DNA of 28,465 bases, taken from IMG/VR virus record IMGVR_UViG_3300044695_002844, positions 1-28,465 of that record. One strand, 5' to 3'. The DNA comes from a virus. Below are positions 1 through 28,465 of the stretch, piece by piece; position 1 is the stretch's first letter; the number at the start of each line of letters is the position of its first letter. The notes under the pieces were generated by a model that saw nothing but the letters and a program-made list of their open reading frames with translations, searched no databases and was not told the DNA's origin. A program made the translations under genes and the position numbers.

Positions 1-179
1 TGCGAACATTCTTAGATTCGAATCCGCATTTTGTACAAAGCACACCCGCTACTACAAATACTAAAACCAATATCGCAGCAATTAACACAAAGAAACTGGA
101 CATTACTTCATTAGATATGAAGAATCCAGAACACCGTAAGATTTATGCTGAATATCGTAAATCTTCTGGTTTAGCCTAA
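1..179 (+). CDS. Prohead scaffolding protein, C-terminal part (5' end missing)
   Basis: The frame starting at base 3 is open from the window edge to a TAA at 177-179 and gives 58 residues, including FLDSNPHFVQ and ending in KNPEHRKIYAEYRKSSGLA. It sits directly upstream of the major capsid gene, the usual place of a scaffold. The polar composition and the NPxxRKxYAxYR-like tail fit scaffold C-termini, which bind the capsid protein during prohead assembly. The missing N-terminal part is very probably the open frame at 28051-28465: base 28465 plus bases 1-2 make a CTG codon and the frame continues. Assignment rests on context and composition, with no catalytic motif. Confidence 0.65.
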   Translation, partial: RTFLDSNPHFVQSTPATTNTKTNIAAINTKKLDITSLDMKNPEHRKIYAEYRKSSGLA

Positions 180-13552: not shown

Positions 13553-16500
13553 ATGGCCAATATTGTAACTATCACAGAACTTACACCAAATGTAAGCATT
13601 ACTACAGATTCATTTCCAGTAACAGTTTCATATAATACAGTATCATTGCCCGGCGCAACAGGTGCTACAGGCCCAGCGGGCGCAACAGGTGCTACGGGTG
13701 CAACCGGTATACAGGGCATTCAGGGTAATGTGGGAGCCACCGGAGCCACCGGAGTAACTGGCGCAACTGGCCCCGCAGGTGCAACTGGTGCTACTGGTGT
13801 ACAAGGCATTCAAGGAGTTGTAGGGGCAACTGGCTTAACAGGCTCAACTGGCTTAACAGGCTCAACAGGGCCAACTGGCGCTACAGGTGCTACAGGTGCT
13901 ACAGGCACACAAGGAATTCAAGGACAAATCGGTGCAACAGGACCTACAGGCGCAACTGGGCCAACCGGCGCAACTGGTCCCGCAGGAGCAACTGGTGCCA
14001 CCGGAGCGAGCGGATTAAATGGCACCAGTGTAAGTTTAAAAGGCAGCGTAGCAACTGTAGCGGATTTAGATGATATTGTAAGTCCTGCTATTGGAGATCT
14101 ATATGTAGTTCTTGCTACTGGCGATGGGTACGTATGGAGTGGTTCTACTTGGAACAACGTAGGCGCAATTCGTGGACCCACTGGAGCAACTGGACCTACT
14201 GGGGCAACAGGTGCAACTGGTGCAACTGGTATACAGGGCATTCAGGGTAATGTGGGAGCCACTGGTGCAACTGGTATACAGGGCATTCAAGGTAATGTGG
14301 GAGCGACAGGTGCAACTGGTATACAGGGCATTCAAGGTAATGTGGGAGCGACAGGTGCGACAGGTGCGACCGGAATAACAGGTGCGACCGGACCACAAGG
14401 AGATGTTGGGGCAACTGGTGCTACAGGTGCTACGGGTGCAACCGGTATACAGGGCATTCAGGGTAATGTGGGAGCCACAGGAGCAACCGGTATACAGGGC
14501 ATTCAGGGTAATGTGGGAGCCACAGGAGCAACCGGAATAACTGGTGCAACAGGTGCTCAAGGCGATACTGGCGCAACAGGACCCACAGGAGCAACCGGAG
14601 TAACAGGTGCAACAGGTGCTCAAGGCATTCAGGGTAATGTGGGTGCTACAGGTGCAACAGGAATAACTGGCGCAACAGGGCCCGCCGGAGCAACAGGGCC
14701 CGCCGGAGCAACCGGAGTAACTGGTGCAACAGGTGCTCAAGGCATTCAGGGTAATGTGGGAGCCACAGGTGCTACTGGCCTAACCGGACCAGGATTACCA
14801 GCAGGCGGCGTAGCGGGAGAATATATTGTTAAGAATAGTTCAACCGATTATGATACAGTTTGGACTGACAGAGTCAATGCCAAGACAATTTATGAAAATG
14901 TTAAAAACGTTTCAGGTGGATCATTAAGCAAAGGCACACCTGTTTATCAGGTTGGAATGGCGGGCAATACTGTTACAGTTGGTGCGGCACGTGCTGATAC
15001 TACAACCAAAGTAGCAGTGGGCGTACTGGATGAAACCATTGCTGATGAAGCCGAAGGACGAATGTTAATTCTTGGCGAAATCAAAGGTGTTAATACCGCT
15101 GCATTTGCAATAGGTGATCGTGTTTATCTTGGTGAAACAGGTGGATTTACTAATGTAGCACCCACTGCATCAGGTGTTGCAATTCAATTCCTGGGTGTTG
15201 TATTCCGTGTTCACGCAAGCAATGGATCCGGATTTATTACTGGGACATTAACACCAGATGCTATCAAATATTCTTCTGGTAGTTTCTATGGGTGGACAGG
15301 TTCTGCTTGGGATTTATTAGAATTACAAGGTAATGTGGGAGCCACTGGCGCAACCGGAATAACTGGCGCAACCGGCGCAACCGGACCCGCAGGTGCCACT
15401 GGCCCCGCAGGAGCAACAGGTGCCACTGGACCACAGGGAGATGTAGGAGCAACAGGATCGGCAGGTGCTACTGGCGCAACTGGACCTGCCGGATTAGATG
15501 GTAGTGCATTCTCTGGTAACCTAAGCGGCAACGTATTATACGATGGCACAAACAATCGTATATTTGCCAATGCTTTCCCACTATCAACACCCACTGCCAC
15601 AACAGGCACAAGTTTTGTTAACTTTATTGTAACCAAGCCAACATACATCAGCGGCGTGCTACAACCTCCTGCATCTGGAACAACTGGTGTTGTTGCCACT
15701 GCGGTAATATCCAGTAACATTGCATTGCAAAGTTCATATCAAACGGCCAATAACCGTAACACTTCTGGTGTTATGCAGTATGCACAAATTTGGCCCACAA
15801 CAGCCAACATTATGACTGGCAGTGACCGTATACGTGCAGCAGCAATCAACACTGACATTATGTTGAATGGCAAGACCTGGGGCACAATGAGCACTGCCAG
15901 TGTCAACAACAACTCAATTACCAACGGTTCAACCAATATCAACATCGTTGGCACAGGTGAAGCAGCGGCTGTTATTGGTCAATATAACGTGGTTCAAAAC
16001 GTTCCAATCAGTGGTAGTGCCAACATTCAGTATGCAACAGCAACACAATCATTTGTTGGTTATGCTACTGGCGCAGGCGCAACAGCCAGTAACATTGCAT
16101 ATGCACGTTTGTATTCAGGACAAATTTCGGGAGCAACCAGCACATTTGTTATTACCAATGCTGTTGGATTACACTTACCATCAGGTTGGCCCAGTAATGC
16201 TACCAACAAGTATGCTATCCTAAACGAAGACTCCGCTTCTGTTATTCAAACCAACGGTAATATTATTACCACTGCTAACTTATCAGTGAGTGGTAACATT
16301 ACTGCACTAGGTAACGTAACCACAAGTGGTAACATTACTGCACTAGGTAACGTAAGCATAAGTGGTAAAACACAGTTGGTTTCATATGCAGAAACCAGTG
16401 TGCCCCTGGGCAACATATCCGGAACAGTGACCATTAATGGTGCATTGGGCAGTATATTCTCCGGAACAGTTACAGGTAATATTACACTTAACACCAATAA

Positions 16501-16705
16501 CTTTGCCAACTTCCAGGTGGGACAAAGTGCTACTATTGTGTTAATACAAGATGGCACAGGCGGTAGAATTTTAACATCTAATTTAAAGTATGCTGGCGGT
16601 GGTAATGTATTGAGCACAGCAGCAGGCGCCTGCGATACCATTAGCGTTCTTTATTTTGGAGCCGGAGCCTCACCATTGGCTGCAATAGTTAAAGGATATG
16701 TCTAA
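13553..16705 (+). CDS. Collagen-like tail fibre protein
   Basis: At 1050 residues this is the largest protein here. Residues 1-33 form a short attachment domain. Gly-X-Y collagen-like repeats run about 34-155, 207-415 and 592-647, dominated by GAT, GPT, GPA and GIQGIQGNV units, and should form a stiff triple helix. Small globular domains interrupt them at about 157-206 ([19 protein letters not shown], typical of fibre-knob inserts) and 416-590 ([28 protein letters not shown]). The last 400 residues are beta-rich with repeated GNITALGNV units near 905-925. It should be a trimeric side or receptor fibre. Start coupling to the preceding stop is likely because the ribosome site is weak. Confidence 0.8.
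14228..14362 (+). repeat. Tandem 45-bp repeats in the fibre gene (three copies)
   Basis: Near-identical 45-base units start at 14228, 14273 and 14318, each beginning GGTATACAGGGCATTCA and encoding [15 protein letters not shown]. Earlier and later copies start at 13706, 14444 and 14489, with partial copies near 14620 and 14738. They keep the reading frame and the Gly-X-Y period. The close nucleotide identity suggests recent expansion by slippage or recombination. Confidence 0.85.
14444..14533 (+). repeat. Second tandem 45-bp repeat pair in the fibre gene
   Basis: Units starting at 14444 and 14489 repeat the same [15 protein letters not shown] module as the set at 14228, again 45 bases apart. 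They are separated from the first set by a more varied Gly-X-Y stretch. Confidence 0.8.
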
Positions 16706-18877: not shown

Positions 18878-19270
18878 ATGACAAAAGTAATTAATTATGT
18901 TCCAAAGCAGACCACAGCAAAAACCATTTATAGAGAACTACGTGAAGAAGATCACAATTGGCTATTAAGCCAATTATCTACTTGGTTAGTTAAAATGGCC
19001 ACACTATCCAACACCACCAATGAAGACCTACGTGCCCTGAGAGATCAATATTGGCGCAAACGTAGAAGCAATTTGCCAAAAGGCAAAGATGGCACAAACA
19101 GTCCCGAAAGTATGGTAGCCGGTATTCTGGACAATATGTTGTACAGCACTAACTTACAGCGCGACTTTTCAGAAAAACAATGTGATGCAATCGAAGATAT
19201 CAGCCGTTGGATGAATGCATTTGATCCTGCCTTGGAAGACATCACATTTCAAATAGGATTATTCCAATGA
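18878..19270 (+). CDS. Unknown helical protein, first gene of the HNH operon
   Basis: A 130-residue protein beginning MTKVINYVPKQTTAKTIYRE, strongly helical and charged, with RDQYWRKRRSNLPKGKDG as a basic patch and DFSEKQCDAIEDISRWMNAF near the end. It has a good TTAGGAGAGG ribosome site and overlaps the HNH gene by ATGA, so the two proteins are probably co-expressed. The basic patch allows nucleic-acid binding. I do not recognise the family. Confidence 0.55.
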   Translation: MTKVINYVPKQTTAKTIYRELREEDHNWLLSQLSTWLVKMATLSNTTNEDLRALRDQYWRKRRSNLPKGKDGTNSPESMVAGILDNMLYSTNLQRDFSEKQCDAIEDISRWMNAFDPALEDITFQIGLFQ

Positions 19271-19818
19271 CCCGCAAAACAAGTAAACGAGATCGTGTAG
19301 GCGATCGATTGATTGATAGACAGTCATATGAACGACGTATTGCACCCGCAGATGCCAATGGATGTCGTATGTGGTTGGGTGTTACCAACAATATCGGTTA
19401 TGGATTCATTAATTTTGCTAAAATAGATGGTAGCAAAGGCGGAATGATGACAGCCCATAGATTGGCCCTGATGCTTAAACTGGACAGGGAAATTGCCCCA
19501 GGTATGAATGCCAATCACAGTTGCCACAACAGATTATGTTGCGAACCCTCACACCTAAGTGAAGGCACACAGCAACAAAAAATGAAACAACTCAGCATAG
19601 ATGGCCGAGCCGGTGGTAATACTAGTCCACGTGGTCCATTAAATCACAAACAATTGAATAGAACCTACAAGTATAACGAAGAAGAAATACAATGGATACG
19701 CAACGCAGATCTGGACGCAATTATGCAGAGATTTAATATAGTGCAACGAAATCGTGCGGCCAAACTGCGGTGGGCCTGCAGAAATTCATATTCTTGGTTG
19801 CTTTGGACAAAGTCCTGA
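19267..19818 (+). CDS. HNH endonuclease
   Basis: A 183-residue protein with AHRLALMLK (His64), then NANHSCHNRLCCEPSHLSEG (His84, Cys86, Cys91, Cys92, His96), the HNH_3-type layout in which paired Cys/His residues frame a metal-binding nuclease centre. The usual CVNPxHL is CCEPSHL here, with Glu at the Asn position. The C-terminal region (EEEIQWIRNADLDAIMQRFN) looks like a helix-turn-helix that would place the nuclease on DNA. It could be a free-standing homing endonuclease, or assist packaging as HNH proteins do in HK97-like phages, though it is about 4.5 kb upstream of the terminase genes. A terminator follows. Confidence 0.75.
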   Translation: MTRKTSKRDRVGDRLIDRQSYERRIAPADANGCRMWLGVTNNIGYGFINFAKIDGSKGGMMTAHRLALMLKLDREIAPGMNANHSCHNRLCCEPSHLSEGTQQQKMKQLSIDGRAGGNTSPRGPLNHKQLNRTYKYNEEEIQWIRNADLDAIMQRFNIVQRNRAAKLRWACRNSYSWLLWTKS

Positions 19819-20144: not shown

Positions 20145-20378
20145 GTGACTGAACAACTAGCCCGAAAACTCATCAGCGAAGGTATTGCAACTCCGCGTTT
20201 ATATACCACAATGAAACAGATGTATGAGCAGTATACTGGAGAACAAATAGCCAATACCATTGCTTACATACGTGCCGAAATTACACTGGGACATTGGCAG
20301 GCACGAGAATCTATCCCACTAGACCCACCTGTGGTCACTCGCACACGTAAAACGGAAAAATTAGTACTTGATAGATAA
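20145..20378 (+). CDS. Unknown small protein (GTG start)
   Basis: A 77-residue protein read from GTG 20145, one base after the lipoprotein stop, so translation is probably coupled. It includes ARKLISEGIATPRLYTTMKQ and ITLGHWQARESIPLDP, with a basic end (TRTRKTEKLVLDR). The first half looks helical and could be DNA-binding. Its last codons lie in the first copy of the 84-bp repeat. No family recognised. Confidence 0.5.
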   Translation: MTEQLARKLISEGIATPRLYTTMKQMYEQYTGEQIANTIAYIRAEITLGHWQARESIPLDPPVVTRTRKTEKLVLDR

Positions 20379-20423
20379 ATATAAATACTATATAATGTAG
20401 TTATAGTTTAACACAAGGAGAAG
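20340..20423 (+). repeat. 84-bp direct repeat, copy 1
   Basis: These 84 bases are identical to 20876-20959, a spacing of 536 bases. The copy holds the 3' end of the preceding gene, the box TATAAATA with the trailing TATAAT, and a complete ribosome site (AAGGAGAAG). It is a mobile-looking promoter and leader cassette, here driving the 50-residue frame at 20427. Confidence 0.95.
20380..20387 (+). promoter_or_regulatory. T4-late-type promoter box TATAAATA (repeat copy 1)
   Basis: Exact TATAAATA followed by CTATATAATG, 39 bases before the start at 20427. It matches the T4 late box including the trailing CTAT. A bacterial -10 (TATAAT) overlaps downstream. Confidence 0.65.
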
Positions 20424-20681: not shown

Positions 20682-20900
20682 ATGGCTAAGAACTCACGTT
20701 TAACCCCAGCAGAATGGGAAAATGTTATTCAGCACTTTAGGGCAATGTCACCAGTAGAACTCAAGCGAGAGCATATCCGCCAGACTCGCCAGATGATGCG
20801 AACAGATCCAGATCTTCGTGATCAACTACAAGTGATCCTGGATCGGCAACAAGCAGAACTTCGAGTATTGGAGGCCGCACACGTAAAACGGAAAAATTAG
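20682..20900 (+). CDS. Unknown small helical protein
   Basis: A 72-residue protein starting MAKNSRLTPAEWENVIQHFR and continuing with long charged helices (REHIRQTRQMMRTDPDLRDQ, LDRQQAELRVLEAA). The ribosome site AAAGGAGAAGTAA is nearly identical to that of the 50-residue gene. The last residues (HVKRKN) are encoded by repeat copy 2 in a different frame from copy 1, so the original C-terminus was probably replaced when the repeat arrived. It may be a small nucleic-acid-binding or regulatory protein; no family recognised. Confidence 0.55.
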   Translation: MAKNSRLTPAEWENVIQHFRAMSPVELKREHIRQTRQMMRTDPDLRDQLQVILDRQQAELRVLEAAHVKRKN

Positions 20901-20959
20901 TACTTGATAGATAAATATAAATACTATATAATGTAGTTATAGTTTAACACAAGGAGAAG
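20876..20959 (+). repeat. 84-bp direct repeat, copy 2
   Basis: Identical to 20340-20423. The left edge abuts a 12-base box (TTGGAGGCCGCA, 20868-20879) that also ends the 50-residue gene at 20562-20573. The copied gene end is out of frame here, so this copy is probably the derived one. Confidence 0.95.
20916..20923 (+). promoter_or_regulatory. T4-late-type promoter box TATAAATA (repeat copy 2)
   Basis: Same box and flanks as at 20380, here 41 bases before the start at 20965. Confidence 0.65.
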
Positions 20960-21252: not shown

Positions 21253-22434
21253 ATGACATATAATCCAAACTTTAACGACCCACGTGTGCTAGCAAGAACA
21301 ACTCAAGCACTTGGCTTTGCTCTTGCAGTAATGAGCAAAACACAACCACATCCGTGGAGCACGAGATATATCGACAGGTACTTCGGACAACAACAATTAC
21401 CACTTAGCAAATACCTACGTGATGTGTTATTGATTACTACCAACAATCATTGGAGTAAAGACACAGGTAAGTGCAAAGAATACATACTTAACGAGTCAGG
21501 TGTGAGATATCTACGTGACATAATACAAGAAACAACTACTATGACTTGGAATGAGTATAAATCATCTCTGACAGATTCCGAGAATCACAATCTCGATAAC
21601 TACTATCACTCTATACCCTATTGTATAGGATCTCCGAATGTGTGTGACGAAGTCCGTAATAATGAACGGAAATGGGACTATAAAATAGTAAATCAATGGG
21701 TTCGAAGAGAATTCGAAAATGAACTTGCTGCCTTACAGTTCAATTATGATGATAAAAGTGATAGGTTATGGCATCCAATACAAAGTATCCGAAGTGAATA
21801 CAAAGACGCCATACTTGCCGAACAGGGATTGCGCTATCAATACGACATCCAATGTGCAGCACCCACACTGATACATCAATATGCACAACAACTTGATATG
21901 GATTTGTGGTTAACTGATTTGCGAAACTATATCAACAACAAAGAACAAATTAGAGCAGAACTTGCTGAGTCTGCAGACTTACCCGTTAAAACAATTAAAG
22001 TGTTGATCAATGCACTATTCTGCGGAGCAAAATTGGGCAACAACCCTGAGTTTGCACTATCACACCTGTTAAATTACGACGCCGCAAGGATAGAATTTAT
22101 TAAAACAAATGCATTTATACTAGCACTTCGAGGCGATATTAAGACCTGCTGGCAAGCAATTGAACCGCACACTACACAGATCTATACAAAGACACAAGCA
22201 GGTCAAGAAAGACGTGTGCCAATGAATTCTAAACGCAAGTGGGGAGTATATTTTAATTTGGAGCGACAGGTATTAAATGCAGTAAGACAATACCTAACCA
22301 AAACCCATAATCCACATTTTCTAGAACACGATGGTTGGAGCACAGTCAACGCTGTTGATCAACAGCAACTGATACAACACGTAACACAAGCAACAGGATT
22401 TGTAATAAAGTTGGACTTAATACAAATTGGCTAA
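21253..22434 (+). CDS. Putative compact palm-domain polymerase (family A / T7-like)
   Basis: A 393-residue protein with three ordered motifs that fit a family A palm. Motif A is YDIQCAAPTLIHQY, with Asp198 as first metal ligand. Motif B is KVLINALFCG, with Lys249 nine residues before Gly258, the spacing of the catalytic Lys and YG pair in Taq polymerase and T7 RNA polymerase. Motif C is FLEHDGWST (His359-Asp360). The gaps (51 and 111 residues) are close to Taq (53 and 122). A helix precedes motif C and a strand (VIKLDLIQIG) ends the chain, as in family A. The N-terminal 190 residues show no exonuclease motif I recognise. It could make DNA or RNA, or prime. No strong ribosome site precedes ATG 21253. 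The assignment is inferred from motifs, not homology search. Confidence 0.5.
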   Translation: MTYNPNFNDPRVLARTTQALGFALAVMSKTQPHPWSTRYIDRYFGQQQLPLSKYLRDVLLITTNNHWSKDTGKCKEYILNESGVRYLRDIIQETTTMTWNEYKSSLTDSENHNLDNYYHSIPYCIGSPNVCDEVRNNERKWDYKIVNQWVRREFENELAALQFNYDDKSDRLWHPIQSIRSEYKDAILAEQGLRYQYDIQCAAPTLIHQYAQQLDMDLWLTDLRNYINNKEQIRAELAESADLPVKTIKVLINALFCGAKLGNNPEFALSHLLNYDAARIEFIKTNAFILALRGDIKTCWQAIEPHTTQIYTKTQAGQERRVPMNSKRKWGVYFNLERQVLNAVRQYLTKTHNPHFLEHDGWSTVNAVDQQQLIQHVTQATGFVIKLDLIQIG

Positions 22435-22777: not shown

Positions 22778-23872
22778 ATGACAAAATTCACCCTGCACGT
22801 ATTAGGCGTGCCACACACCAAAACAACCCCAGAATTCAATGGATGTGCCTTTACTGCAAAAGTCCTAAAGTTTTGCCGTATGATGCATCAACGTGGACAC
22901 CGGGTGATACACTATGGTCACCAAGACAGCCAAGTGGAATGCTCTGAACACGTGACAGTAACTACCAATGCTACACTTGAAGCAGCATACGGTGATTACC
23001 GTTGGAAAGAATTGGGATTTGCACACTACTATCGCACAGATGACCTAGCGCACAAGACCTTTCACGCTAATAGTATAAAAGAGATTGAGAAGCGTAAGCA
23101 GCCCAATGATATACTGTTATGTTTCTGGGGTTGGGGTCACAAGCCCATTGCTGATGCACATCCGGACCTGATTGCCATTGAACCTGGCATTGGTTATGGT
23201 GGTGCTTGGGCACGTTGGCGTGTGTATGAAAGCCATAGTGTAATGAATTGTCTAGCGGGCCCTAGAGCAGTCAGTGAGTGTCTTCAAGACTGGTATCACG
23301 TGGTTATACCCAATTACTTTGATCTAGATGACTTTACCTATGAAACACACAAGCAGGACTATATCTTATACCTGGGCAGAATATACAGTGGCAAAGGTGT
23401 AGATATTGCAATAGATGCAGCACAAAAGGCAGGGAAAAAGTTAATTATCGCTGGGCAAGGCACACTAAAAGCAATGGGGTACTCAACAGTACCTGATCAC
23501 GTTACCGAGTTTGGTTATGCTGGCTCAGAGGATCGTAGACGTTTACTCAAGGATGCCAGTGCATTGTTTATTGCATCACGCTATGCAGAACCATTTGGTG
23601 GTGTGCAGGTAGAAGCCTGGATGTCTGGCACACCAGTTATATCACCAGATTGGGCAGCATTTGCCGAATTCAATCAACACGGTGTCACTGGTTATCGCTG
23701 TAGGACATTCAAGGATTTTGTCACTGCCATTGAGTCTGTTGATCAAATACGTCCACGGGCCTGTAGGCTAAATGCAGCACAATTTACCTTTGATCACATT
23801 GCACCGCAATATGAACGTTACTTTCAAGATGTTACTGATGTATATACTGGACAAGGATGGTACCAACAATGA
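22778..23872 (+). CDS. GT-B fold glycosyltransferase (GT4-like)
   Basis: A 364-residue protein. The N-terminal half has a GT-B opening (FTAKVLKFCRMMHQRGHRVI) and PDLIAIEPGIGYGGAWARWR. The C-terminal half has YILYLGRIYSGKGVDIAIDA, KKLIIAGQG and the nucleotide-sugar motif AEPFGGVQVEAWMSGTPVIS with Glu271 and Glu279 in EX7E spacing. It should transfer a sugar from a nucleotide donor. The target could be phage DNA, virion protein or a host surface glycan; there is no base-modifying partner enzyme here to favour DNA. It begins a transcription unit that leads through two small genes to the terminase. Confidence 0.8.
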   Translation: MTKFTLHVLGVPHTKTTPEFNGCAFTAKVLKFCRMMHQRGHRVIHYGHQDSQVECSEHVTVTTNATLEAAYGDYRWKELGFAHYYRTDDLAHKTFHANSIKEIEKRKQPNDILLCFWGWGHKPIADAHPDLIAIEPGIGYGGAWARWRVYESHSVMNCLAGPRAVSECLQDWYHVVIPNYFDLDDFTYETHKQDYILYLGRIYSGKGVDIAIDAAQKAGKKLIIAGQGTLKAMGYSTVPDHVTEFGYAGSEDRRRLLKDASALFIASRYAEPFGGVQVEAWMSGTPVISPDWAAFAEFNQHGVTGYRCRTFKDFVTAIESVDQIRPRACRLNAAQFTFDHIAPQYERYFQDVTDVYTGQGWYQQ

Positions 23873-28050: not shown

Positions 28051-28465
28051 ATGTCAGACAATACATTGGTACAAGACAACGCAACTGATGCGGCAACTTT
28101 AGAAACTGAAAATCAGGCACAGGCGACAAAAACTTATACGCAAAAAGAAGTAGATGATATGATGGCTCGTACAAAGAGTTCATTGCAGAAGAAACTATTG
28201 AAACCGTATGAGGACTTGGGAGACCCAGATGAACTACGTGCTTTGCGACAAGATGCTGAAAAGCGTCAGATCGAACAACAAATGAAACGTGGTGAATTTG
28301 AGAAAACTCTACAAGAATTGGCCGCTAAAAAGGATACTGAAATATCCAAAAGAGATGCGATAATTAAGGAATACAAAGTTAATACACCTCTTGTAAGTGC
28401 CGCCGCAAAGTTTAGAGCAGTAGCACCTGAGCAAGTTAAAAGTTTATTAGCCAATAGTGTTAGAC
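28051..28465 (+). CDS. Prohead scaffolding protein, N-terminal part (3' end missing)
   Basis: The frame begins at ATG 28051 after AAAAGGAGG and is open to the window edge (138 full codons). It starts MSDNTLVQDNATDAATLETE, is acidic and Gln-rich, has MARTKSSLQKKLLKPYEDLG and DELRALRQDAEKRQIEQQMK, and a coiled-coil middle, the usual make-up of scaffold proteins. It reaches VAPEQVKSLLANSVR at the edge. Joined to bases 1-179 in frame it gives about 197 residues. Position after the portal and before the capsid supports the call. Confidence 0.7.
   Translation, partial: MSDNTLVQDNATDAATLETENQAQATKTYTQKEVDDMMARTKSSLQKKLLKPYEDLGDPDELRALRQDAEKRQIEQQMKRGEFEKTLQELAAKKDTEISKRDAIIKEYKVNTPLVSAAAKFRAVAPEQVKSLLANSVR

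Follow-up and report, generated by a model that had tools for sequence, protein, structure and literature searches.

The window, the whole 28,465-nucleotide stretch of DNA analysed here (IMG/VR virus record IMGVR_UViG_3300044695_002844), carries genes for capsid, tail, terminase, portal and glycosyltransferase-like proteins and belongs to a tailed phage, with its main open reading frames (ORFs) on the + strand. The head scaffolding gene is split over both ends of the window, and alignment with relatives places about 100 bp of missing sequence between them; the record is therefore a nearly complete, permuted genome of 28.5 kb. The polymerase-like gene and the features that frame it are as follows.

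3..179, + strand: C-terminal part of the head scaffolding gene, from alignment with relatives
20340..20423, + strand: 84-bp direct repeat, copy 1, with promoter-like hexamers and a ribosome-binding site, from a repeat scan
20876..20959, + strand: 84-bp direct repeat, copy 2, exact, from the same scan
21253..22434, + strand: polymerase-like gene, 393 aa, the sole recognised phage replication gene, from the ORF, its homologues and a structure model
28051..28465, + strand: N-terminal part of the head scaffolding gene, running off the window end, from alignment with relatives

The polymerase-like gene is intact and starts with ATG. Both copies of the 84-bp repeat lie upstream of it, each preceding a small ORF. 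An HNH endonuclease is encoded nearby (19267-19818), and its relatives likewise lie near the polymerase in several related loci; just 3' of the polymerase gene is the glycosyltransferase-like gene (22778-23872; phrog_3408, E 6e-144), with relatives in loci L004, L011 and L027. Elsewhere, 13553-16705 encodes a tail fibre of 1050 aa that contains numerous collagen-like repeats of glycine. Scans for Rfam families and tRNAs found none in the window.

Neither a helicase nor a primase nor another polymerase was recognised in this near-complete genome. Searches for DnaB_C, D5_N and Helicase_C gave no match in the window or in 16 relatives of 28-52 kb, and the control genomes scored. The Walker A proteins of the related loci are mainly terminases, with AAA+ proteins in six loci, an SbcC-like protein in one pair, and a remainder of chance or bacterial matches. 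The AAA+ ATPase, which is about 290 aa long and has no Pfam match, is found at 11995-12873 of L002 and in five other loci and is a possible replication helper; an unrecognised helper may also be among the window proteins without assigned function. The original prediction, made from the sequence of the window, that no other replication gene is in view thus holds for what is nearly a whole genome, and its proposal of a minimal replication or priming enzyme fits both this genome and the 16 relatives without helicase-family matches.

Homologue searches gave 32 loci in viral contigs, a number that includes near-duplicates. Two more lie in bacterial contigs, which bear the titles Caballeronia udeis and uncultured Legionella. 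The Caballeronia copy occupies 9977-11092 of L036, with FtsY-like sequence about 5 kb downstream; a few of its neighbours were scanned, and none of these clearly matched phage proteins. No further polymerase copies turned up in 300 surveyed genomes from the order of Caballeronia. The relatives of the window have at least two kinds of terminase, and the polymerase therefore travels among structural modules, in a set of contigs that was itself selected by the polymerase gene. Within the gene the following parts can be distinguished.

21280..21525, codons 10-91, + strand: N-terminal domain of predicted winged-helix topology (three helices, beta hairpin, helix), from two models and weak PDB matches
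21547..21732, codons 99-160, + strand: two helices in the thumb position, with a low-confidence loop at residues 115-127, from the model
21745..21774, codons 165-174, + strand: beta hairpin YDDKSDRLWH with invariant R171, the template-strand Arg of family A and TV-Pol enzymes, from the model, the alignment and PMC2579912
21835..21870, codons 195-206, + strand: motif A with the predicted catalytic D198, from the model and the alignment
21997..22026, codons 249-258, + strand: motif B, fingers helix with invariant K249 and G258, from the model and the alignment
22261..22266, codons 337-338, + strand: invariant Glu-Arg ahead of motif C, from the alignment
22315..22338, codons 355-362, + strand: motif C, H359-D360, from the model and the alignment

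Conservation was assessed in an alignment of 30 divergent homologues that are 36-51% identical to the window protein. R171, Q177, D198, R234, K249, G258, E337, R338, H359 and D360 are invariant in all 30. They include every residue from which motifs A, B and C of family A polymerases had originally been read (D198, K249, G258, H359 and D360). The spacings given at that time, 51 residues from A to B and 111 from B to C, with K249 nine residues ahead of G258, are indeed present, and across the homologues they range over 50-64 and 97-113. As the residues are invariant and the spacings kept, the motifs are not a chance resemblance. A Cys three residues after the motif A Asp (D+3) had also been taken as a mark of T7 RNA polymerase; it is Cys in 23 of the 30 homologues and Ser, Thr or Ala in the others, and as it is not conserved this likeness was rejected. 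D+5 is Ala, Cys or Ser throughout, the Pol I-type Glu being absent, and K+8 is Ala, Cys, Gln, Ser, Asn or Met, the Pol I-type O-helix Tyr being absent. At K-4 the 30 homologues have Glu, Val, Pro, Ser, Thr, Gln, Tyr, Ala or Ile, so that the RxxxK signature of TV-Pols is lacking; the invariant R234 sits 15 residues before K249.

The full-length model is confident (mean pLDDT 90.9, pTM 0.84; only residues 115-127 fall below 50) and contains the family A palm and fingers that the motifs had implied. The absence of an exonuclease domain, also part of the original prediction, is borne out by the model and by the length of the protein. Along the chain, helices at 10-59 are followed by a beta hairpin at 60-79 and a helix at 81-91, then by helices 99-112 and 127-160 and by a hairpin at 166-173 (strands 166-168 and 171-173) that carries R171. 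The catalytic part comprises the palm strand with D198, the fingers helices with K249, helix 326-350 with E337-R338, and motif C at 359-360. The modelled thumb and the probable N-terminal winged helix had been missed in the first reading. Foldseek placed family A DNA polymerases at the top of the PDB (8jrb, E 6.5e-4, and Bst, Taq and Pol theta; probability 1.00), and a second structure aligner gave T7 DNA polymerase (Z 13.2, rmsd 4.8, 247 residues), Pol theta (Z 12.5), Klenow (Z 12.2) and yeast mitochondrial RNA polymerase (Z 11.2). In the BFVD viral structure library, uncharacterised Caudovirales proteins come first (E 4e-10), and the entries below them include virophage replication proteins, from Qinghai Lake virophage and from Zamilon (E 4e-6 to 5e-6). 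Prediction and comparison together show a family A type of palm and fingers with a short thumb. Neither of the two findings that would have spoken against the original prediction, a confident model without a palm and homologues that vary at D198, K249 or D360, was obtained.

The main alternative, which the mitochondrial match would favour, is an RNA polymerase like those of T7 and of mitochondria, for which the conserved DNA sites described below would serve as promoters in its own locus. At D+5 the T7 enzyme has Gly, and the loss of the DNA polymerase Glu from this position in the present family points the same way. DNA polymerases nevertheless rank above RNA polymerases in both structure searches and a T7-type promoter-recognition domain is not visible, so that, with the evidence of the sites themselves, an RNA polymerase is considered unlikely.

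Searches against Pfam, PHROGs and PDB sequence profiles matched the protein to no family, and a profile of the family (A2) gave chance rows only against PDB sequences. Elsewhere A2 matched a protein encoded by Polaromonas plasmid pW9NP1 (E 8e-20) and one from a Desulfovibrio phage (E 8e-12). Compared profile to profile with a five-member TV-Pol-like set, made up of plasmid and phage relatives and a Calothrix plasmid fragment, A2 gave Prob 99.2 and E 2e-19, the alignment extending over 222 columns from the hairpin through the C-terminus, and comparison with MAP_030 of phage Ma-LMM01 alone gave E 1.3e-3 with the motifs in register. The five-member set matched Pol I and T7 gp5 in turn (E 1.9e-4); A2 compared directly with these two sequences gave nothing, so that it is structure and the intermediate set that carry the link to Pol I. 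MAP_030 itself, which adjoins transposase genes, matched a second Polaromonas plasmid (E 2e-4); its homology and its transposase neighbours suggest that the TV-Pol assigned to Ma-LMM01 in the 2008 paper cited below is this protein. The viral contigs searched with the Polaromonas plasmid relative gave no match.

The proteins of Polaromonas plasmids pW9NP1 and pH8NP1 and of the Desulfovibrio phage are the closest in sequence outside the polymerase family, but they are 538, 501 and 767 aa long, with different N-terminal regions, and the two plasmids carry a RepA gene as well. In these small glacier plasmids the TV-Pol-like protein is unannotated or misnamed (L058 37-1653 and L079 6095-7600), and one copy lies directly before RepA. 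The 767-aa protein is encoded at 5101-7404 of L010, a 142-kb unannotated record, and has the same motif A/B region and an HDG motif.

TV-Pols, as described by Iyer, Abhiman and Aravind in 2008 (PMC2579912), have an anti-parallel two-helix thumb, a hairpin with an absolutely conserved Arg, a two-Asp palm and, inserted in it, fingers that bear RxxxK and a conserved Asp. They occur in mobile elements, Sputnik and phage Ma-LMM01, joined to a D5-like helicase or a TV-PolN domain or as standalone forms, and both priming and polymerising have been proposed for them (PMC2579912). The window protein is linked to them by fold and tentatively by profile. It shares the hairpin Arg, the two-Asp palm, the fingers inserted in the palm, the lack of an exonuclease and the phage or mobile-element setting, and its model has a minimal two-helix thumb (99-112 and 127-160) ahead of the hairpin. 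It differs in having no Arg at K-4, which is likewise absent from its nearest plasmid and phage relatives, no D5 helicase fused or nearby, and no recognised all-helical TV-PolN domain, in place of which there are a winged-helix-like N-terminus and putative cognate sites within the gene. As the O-helix Arg is not conserved and the D5 helicase is absent, the protein is described as TV-Pol-like rather than filed as a TV-Pol; TV-Pol is nonetheless its nearest described kind, rather than Taq or T7 RNA polymerase.

A compact family A catalytic core on a mobile element is also found in the CcPol-MP and PolA-SSB primases of SCC elements. CcPol of SCCmec shows primase activity with its partner MP (PMC10061031); in contrast to the window protein, it keeps part of the exonuclease domain and requires an OB-fold partner, none being recognised for the window protein. 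No neighbour gene is conserved across the loci, and a conserved single-strand binding partner of the kind that CcPol priming requires was not recognised among them.

Residues 1-96 modelled alone give a winged-helix topology with a pLDDT of 94. Their PDB matches are nearly all winged-helix regulators, mostly of MarR/PadR type, although weak (best Z 5.0), and Foldseek gave no match with E below 0.1; on these models a resemblance to a winged helix is probable. The region that follows codes for a linker and contains a conserved DNA site.

21612..21634 (core 21615-21625), + strand: conserved site TATACCCTATTGTA-TAGG-ATCTC in linker-coding DNA, a putative initiator-binding site or origin, from site scans

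Iteron-like repeats common to the relatives were sought in the upstream regions and not found. A direct-repeat scan of the loci yielded the pattern TATACCCTA[GT]TGTA (ACCCTA[GT]TGTA). With one mismatch allowed, and with the zone from -400 to +200 of the gene counted as near the polymerase, there are 29 sites in 55 kb near the gene and one in 711 kb elsewhere (Fisher p 2e-32). All 29 are on the sense strand of the polymerase; the lone outside site is on the opposite strand, 440 bp upstream of the Caballeronia copy in L036. Inclusion of the variant cores CATATAGTGTA and CTCTTATTGTA raises the count to 52 near the gene and two elsewhere, and at least one site is then present in 27 of the 32 genomes, the other five having no recognisable site. 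Two copies are present in 21 genomes, usually at codons 97-134 and around the stop codon and 755-848 bp apart, and A[AT][GC]TC stands four bases past the core in most copies. Exceptions are L011, with both copies after the gene, L001, with one before it, and the window, which has the linker copy and none at the stop codon. The reading frame of the site in the window differs from that in most relatives, and it is therefore the DNA and not the peptide that is conserved.

As the pattern was derived from these same loci, a blind scan of all viral contigs was run with ATACCCTAKTGTANNNNAWSTC. It returned 36 stretches, 26 of them from contigs unused before, and 10 of these 26, including all new stretches with two copies, carry a polymerase gene there in the orientation of the site. 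The remaining single matches, two of which lie at a contig end, are by our own rough estimate about as many as chance would produce in so large a collection. In these scans the sites are nearly exclusive to the polymerase locus. The variant CATATAGTGTA was found only alongside the LGTR[WY]I form of the winged-helix-like domain, a co-variation of site and N-terminal subtype that is confounded by common descent.

The strand-specificity of the sites would suit promoters, and their reverse complement, TACACTAGGGTATA, recalls CACTATAGGG of T7-class promoters. Were that likeness real, however, transcription would be directed opposite to the main ORFs of the window, which are on the + strand. Furthermore, promoters would have to be nearly confined to one locus, since the single other site is itself beside a polymerase.

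Paired copies could also be read as recombination sites or homology arms bracketing a mobile or exchangeable cassette, the catalytic half. Direct repeats of about 14-48 bp do flank this half in about 20 genomes, and their flanks are 72% identical within a genome against 42% between genomes, 17 of 20 first copies matching their own partner best. The two halves of the protein do not, however, appear to be freely swapped, as the identities of the N-terminal and catalytic parts correlate (r 0.73). No recombinase was recognised in the searches run, and in L011, L001 and the window the copies are arranged otherwise. A cassette is thus rather improbable.

Also rather improbable is an accessory repair or translesion polymerase in a phage replicated wholly by its host. 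Its model is divPolA2, proposed as a non-replicative polymerase of phages that have a main polymerase (PMC11348598), and BFVD gave a weak structural match to the DNA polymerase of a barbavirus (E 2.2e-3). Both divPolA1 and divPolA2 resemble the window protein in being divergent family A polymerases of phages that lack exonuclease activity, but they occur beside a regular polymerase and in larger genomes, of 80-190 kb for the described groups (PMC11348598); divPolA2 also has no recognisable thumb, whereas thumb helices are modelled here. No other replication gene was recognised in the near-complete genome, a gene content that suits a repair role poorly. The gene is moreover what contigs of differing terminase type have in common, albeit contigs selected by that gene, and dedicated DNA sites and a DNA-binding type of N-terminal domain are unexpected for a repair enzyme.

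The reading that best accommodates sequence, models and analogy, with a probability of about 0.6, is that the protein is a single-chain initiator with a built-in primase-polymerase and with its sites beside or inside its own gene. The protein probably starts the copying of the phage DNA largely alone, in a family that usually has two sites. The closest analogy for the sites is the lambdoid origin, which lies in the middle of gene O and has two components, iterons to which O binds and a tract rich in AT (PMC7466680); lambda O is thought to have an N-terminal DNA-binding domain and a C-terminal P-binding domain with a flexible linker between them (PMC6022878). The window protein would share with O the order of DNA-binding-type domain, linker and C-terminal effector, and the location of sites in mid-protein coding DNA. 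It differs in that the effector is of polymerase type, rather than a binder of the helicase loader P, and in that one to three sites, the second at the stop codon, take the place of four to six adjacent iterons. By this analogy the N-terminal domain would bind the conserved sites as O binds the iterons within its gene. The catalytic half would then lay down a primer or a first DNA strand at the site, as proposed for TV-Pols and shown for CcPol-MP, and host proteins would provide the helicase and perhaps the bulk of the synthesis.

Several observations count against a single-chain initiator. The winged-helix match is weak, five of the 32 genomes have no recognisable site and the window has one copy rather than two; one to three sites, mostly 760-850 bp apart, are unlike a compact iteron array, and no conserved single-strand binding partner was recognised among the neighbours. 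A wider proposal, that a lineage of small tailed phages replicates by such an initiator, primase and polymerase in one chain reading its own origin sites, one in linker-coding DNA and usually one at the end of the gene, with the copies in each genome perhaps kept similar through the mechanism of replication, is correspondingly more tentative and falls somewhat short of even odds.

The new elements here are the winged-helix-like residues 1-96 and the DNA site in the linker-coding part and at the stop codon. To our knowledge, no phage initiator has been described in which a single protein this small both binds an origin sequence-specifically and carries a family A catalytic core. If the single-chain reading is true, the protein would show with how few components a dsDNA phage can begin to replicate, would provide a standalone test case for the long-standing idea that TV-Pols both prime and polymerise, and would be a family A enzyme reduced by nature to a minimum. 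Through the conserved site, binding, footprint and priming start points become directly accessible with one 393-residue protein and one 60-bp duplex.

Two minor observations concern individual contigs. L092, L106, L096 and L113 start or stop near the repeated site, a pattern that breaks in assembly at direct repeats would produce. In L110 (12948-14156) the polymerase homologue is broken into two open frames, and both sites are retained.
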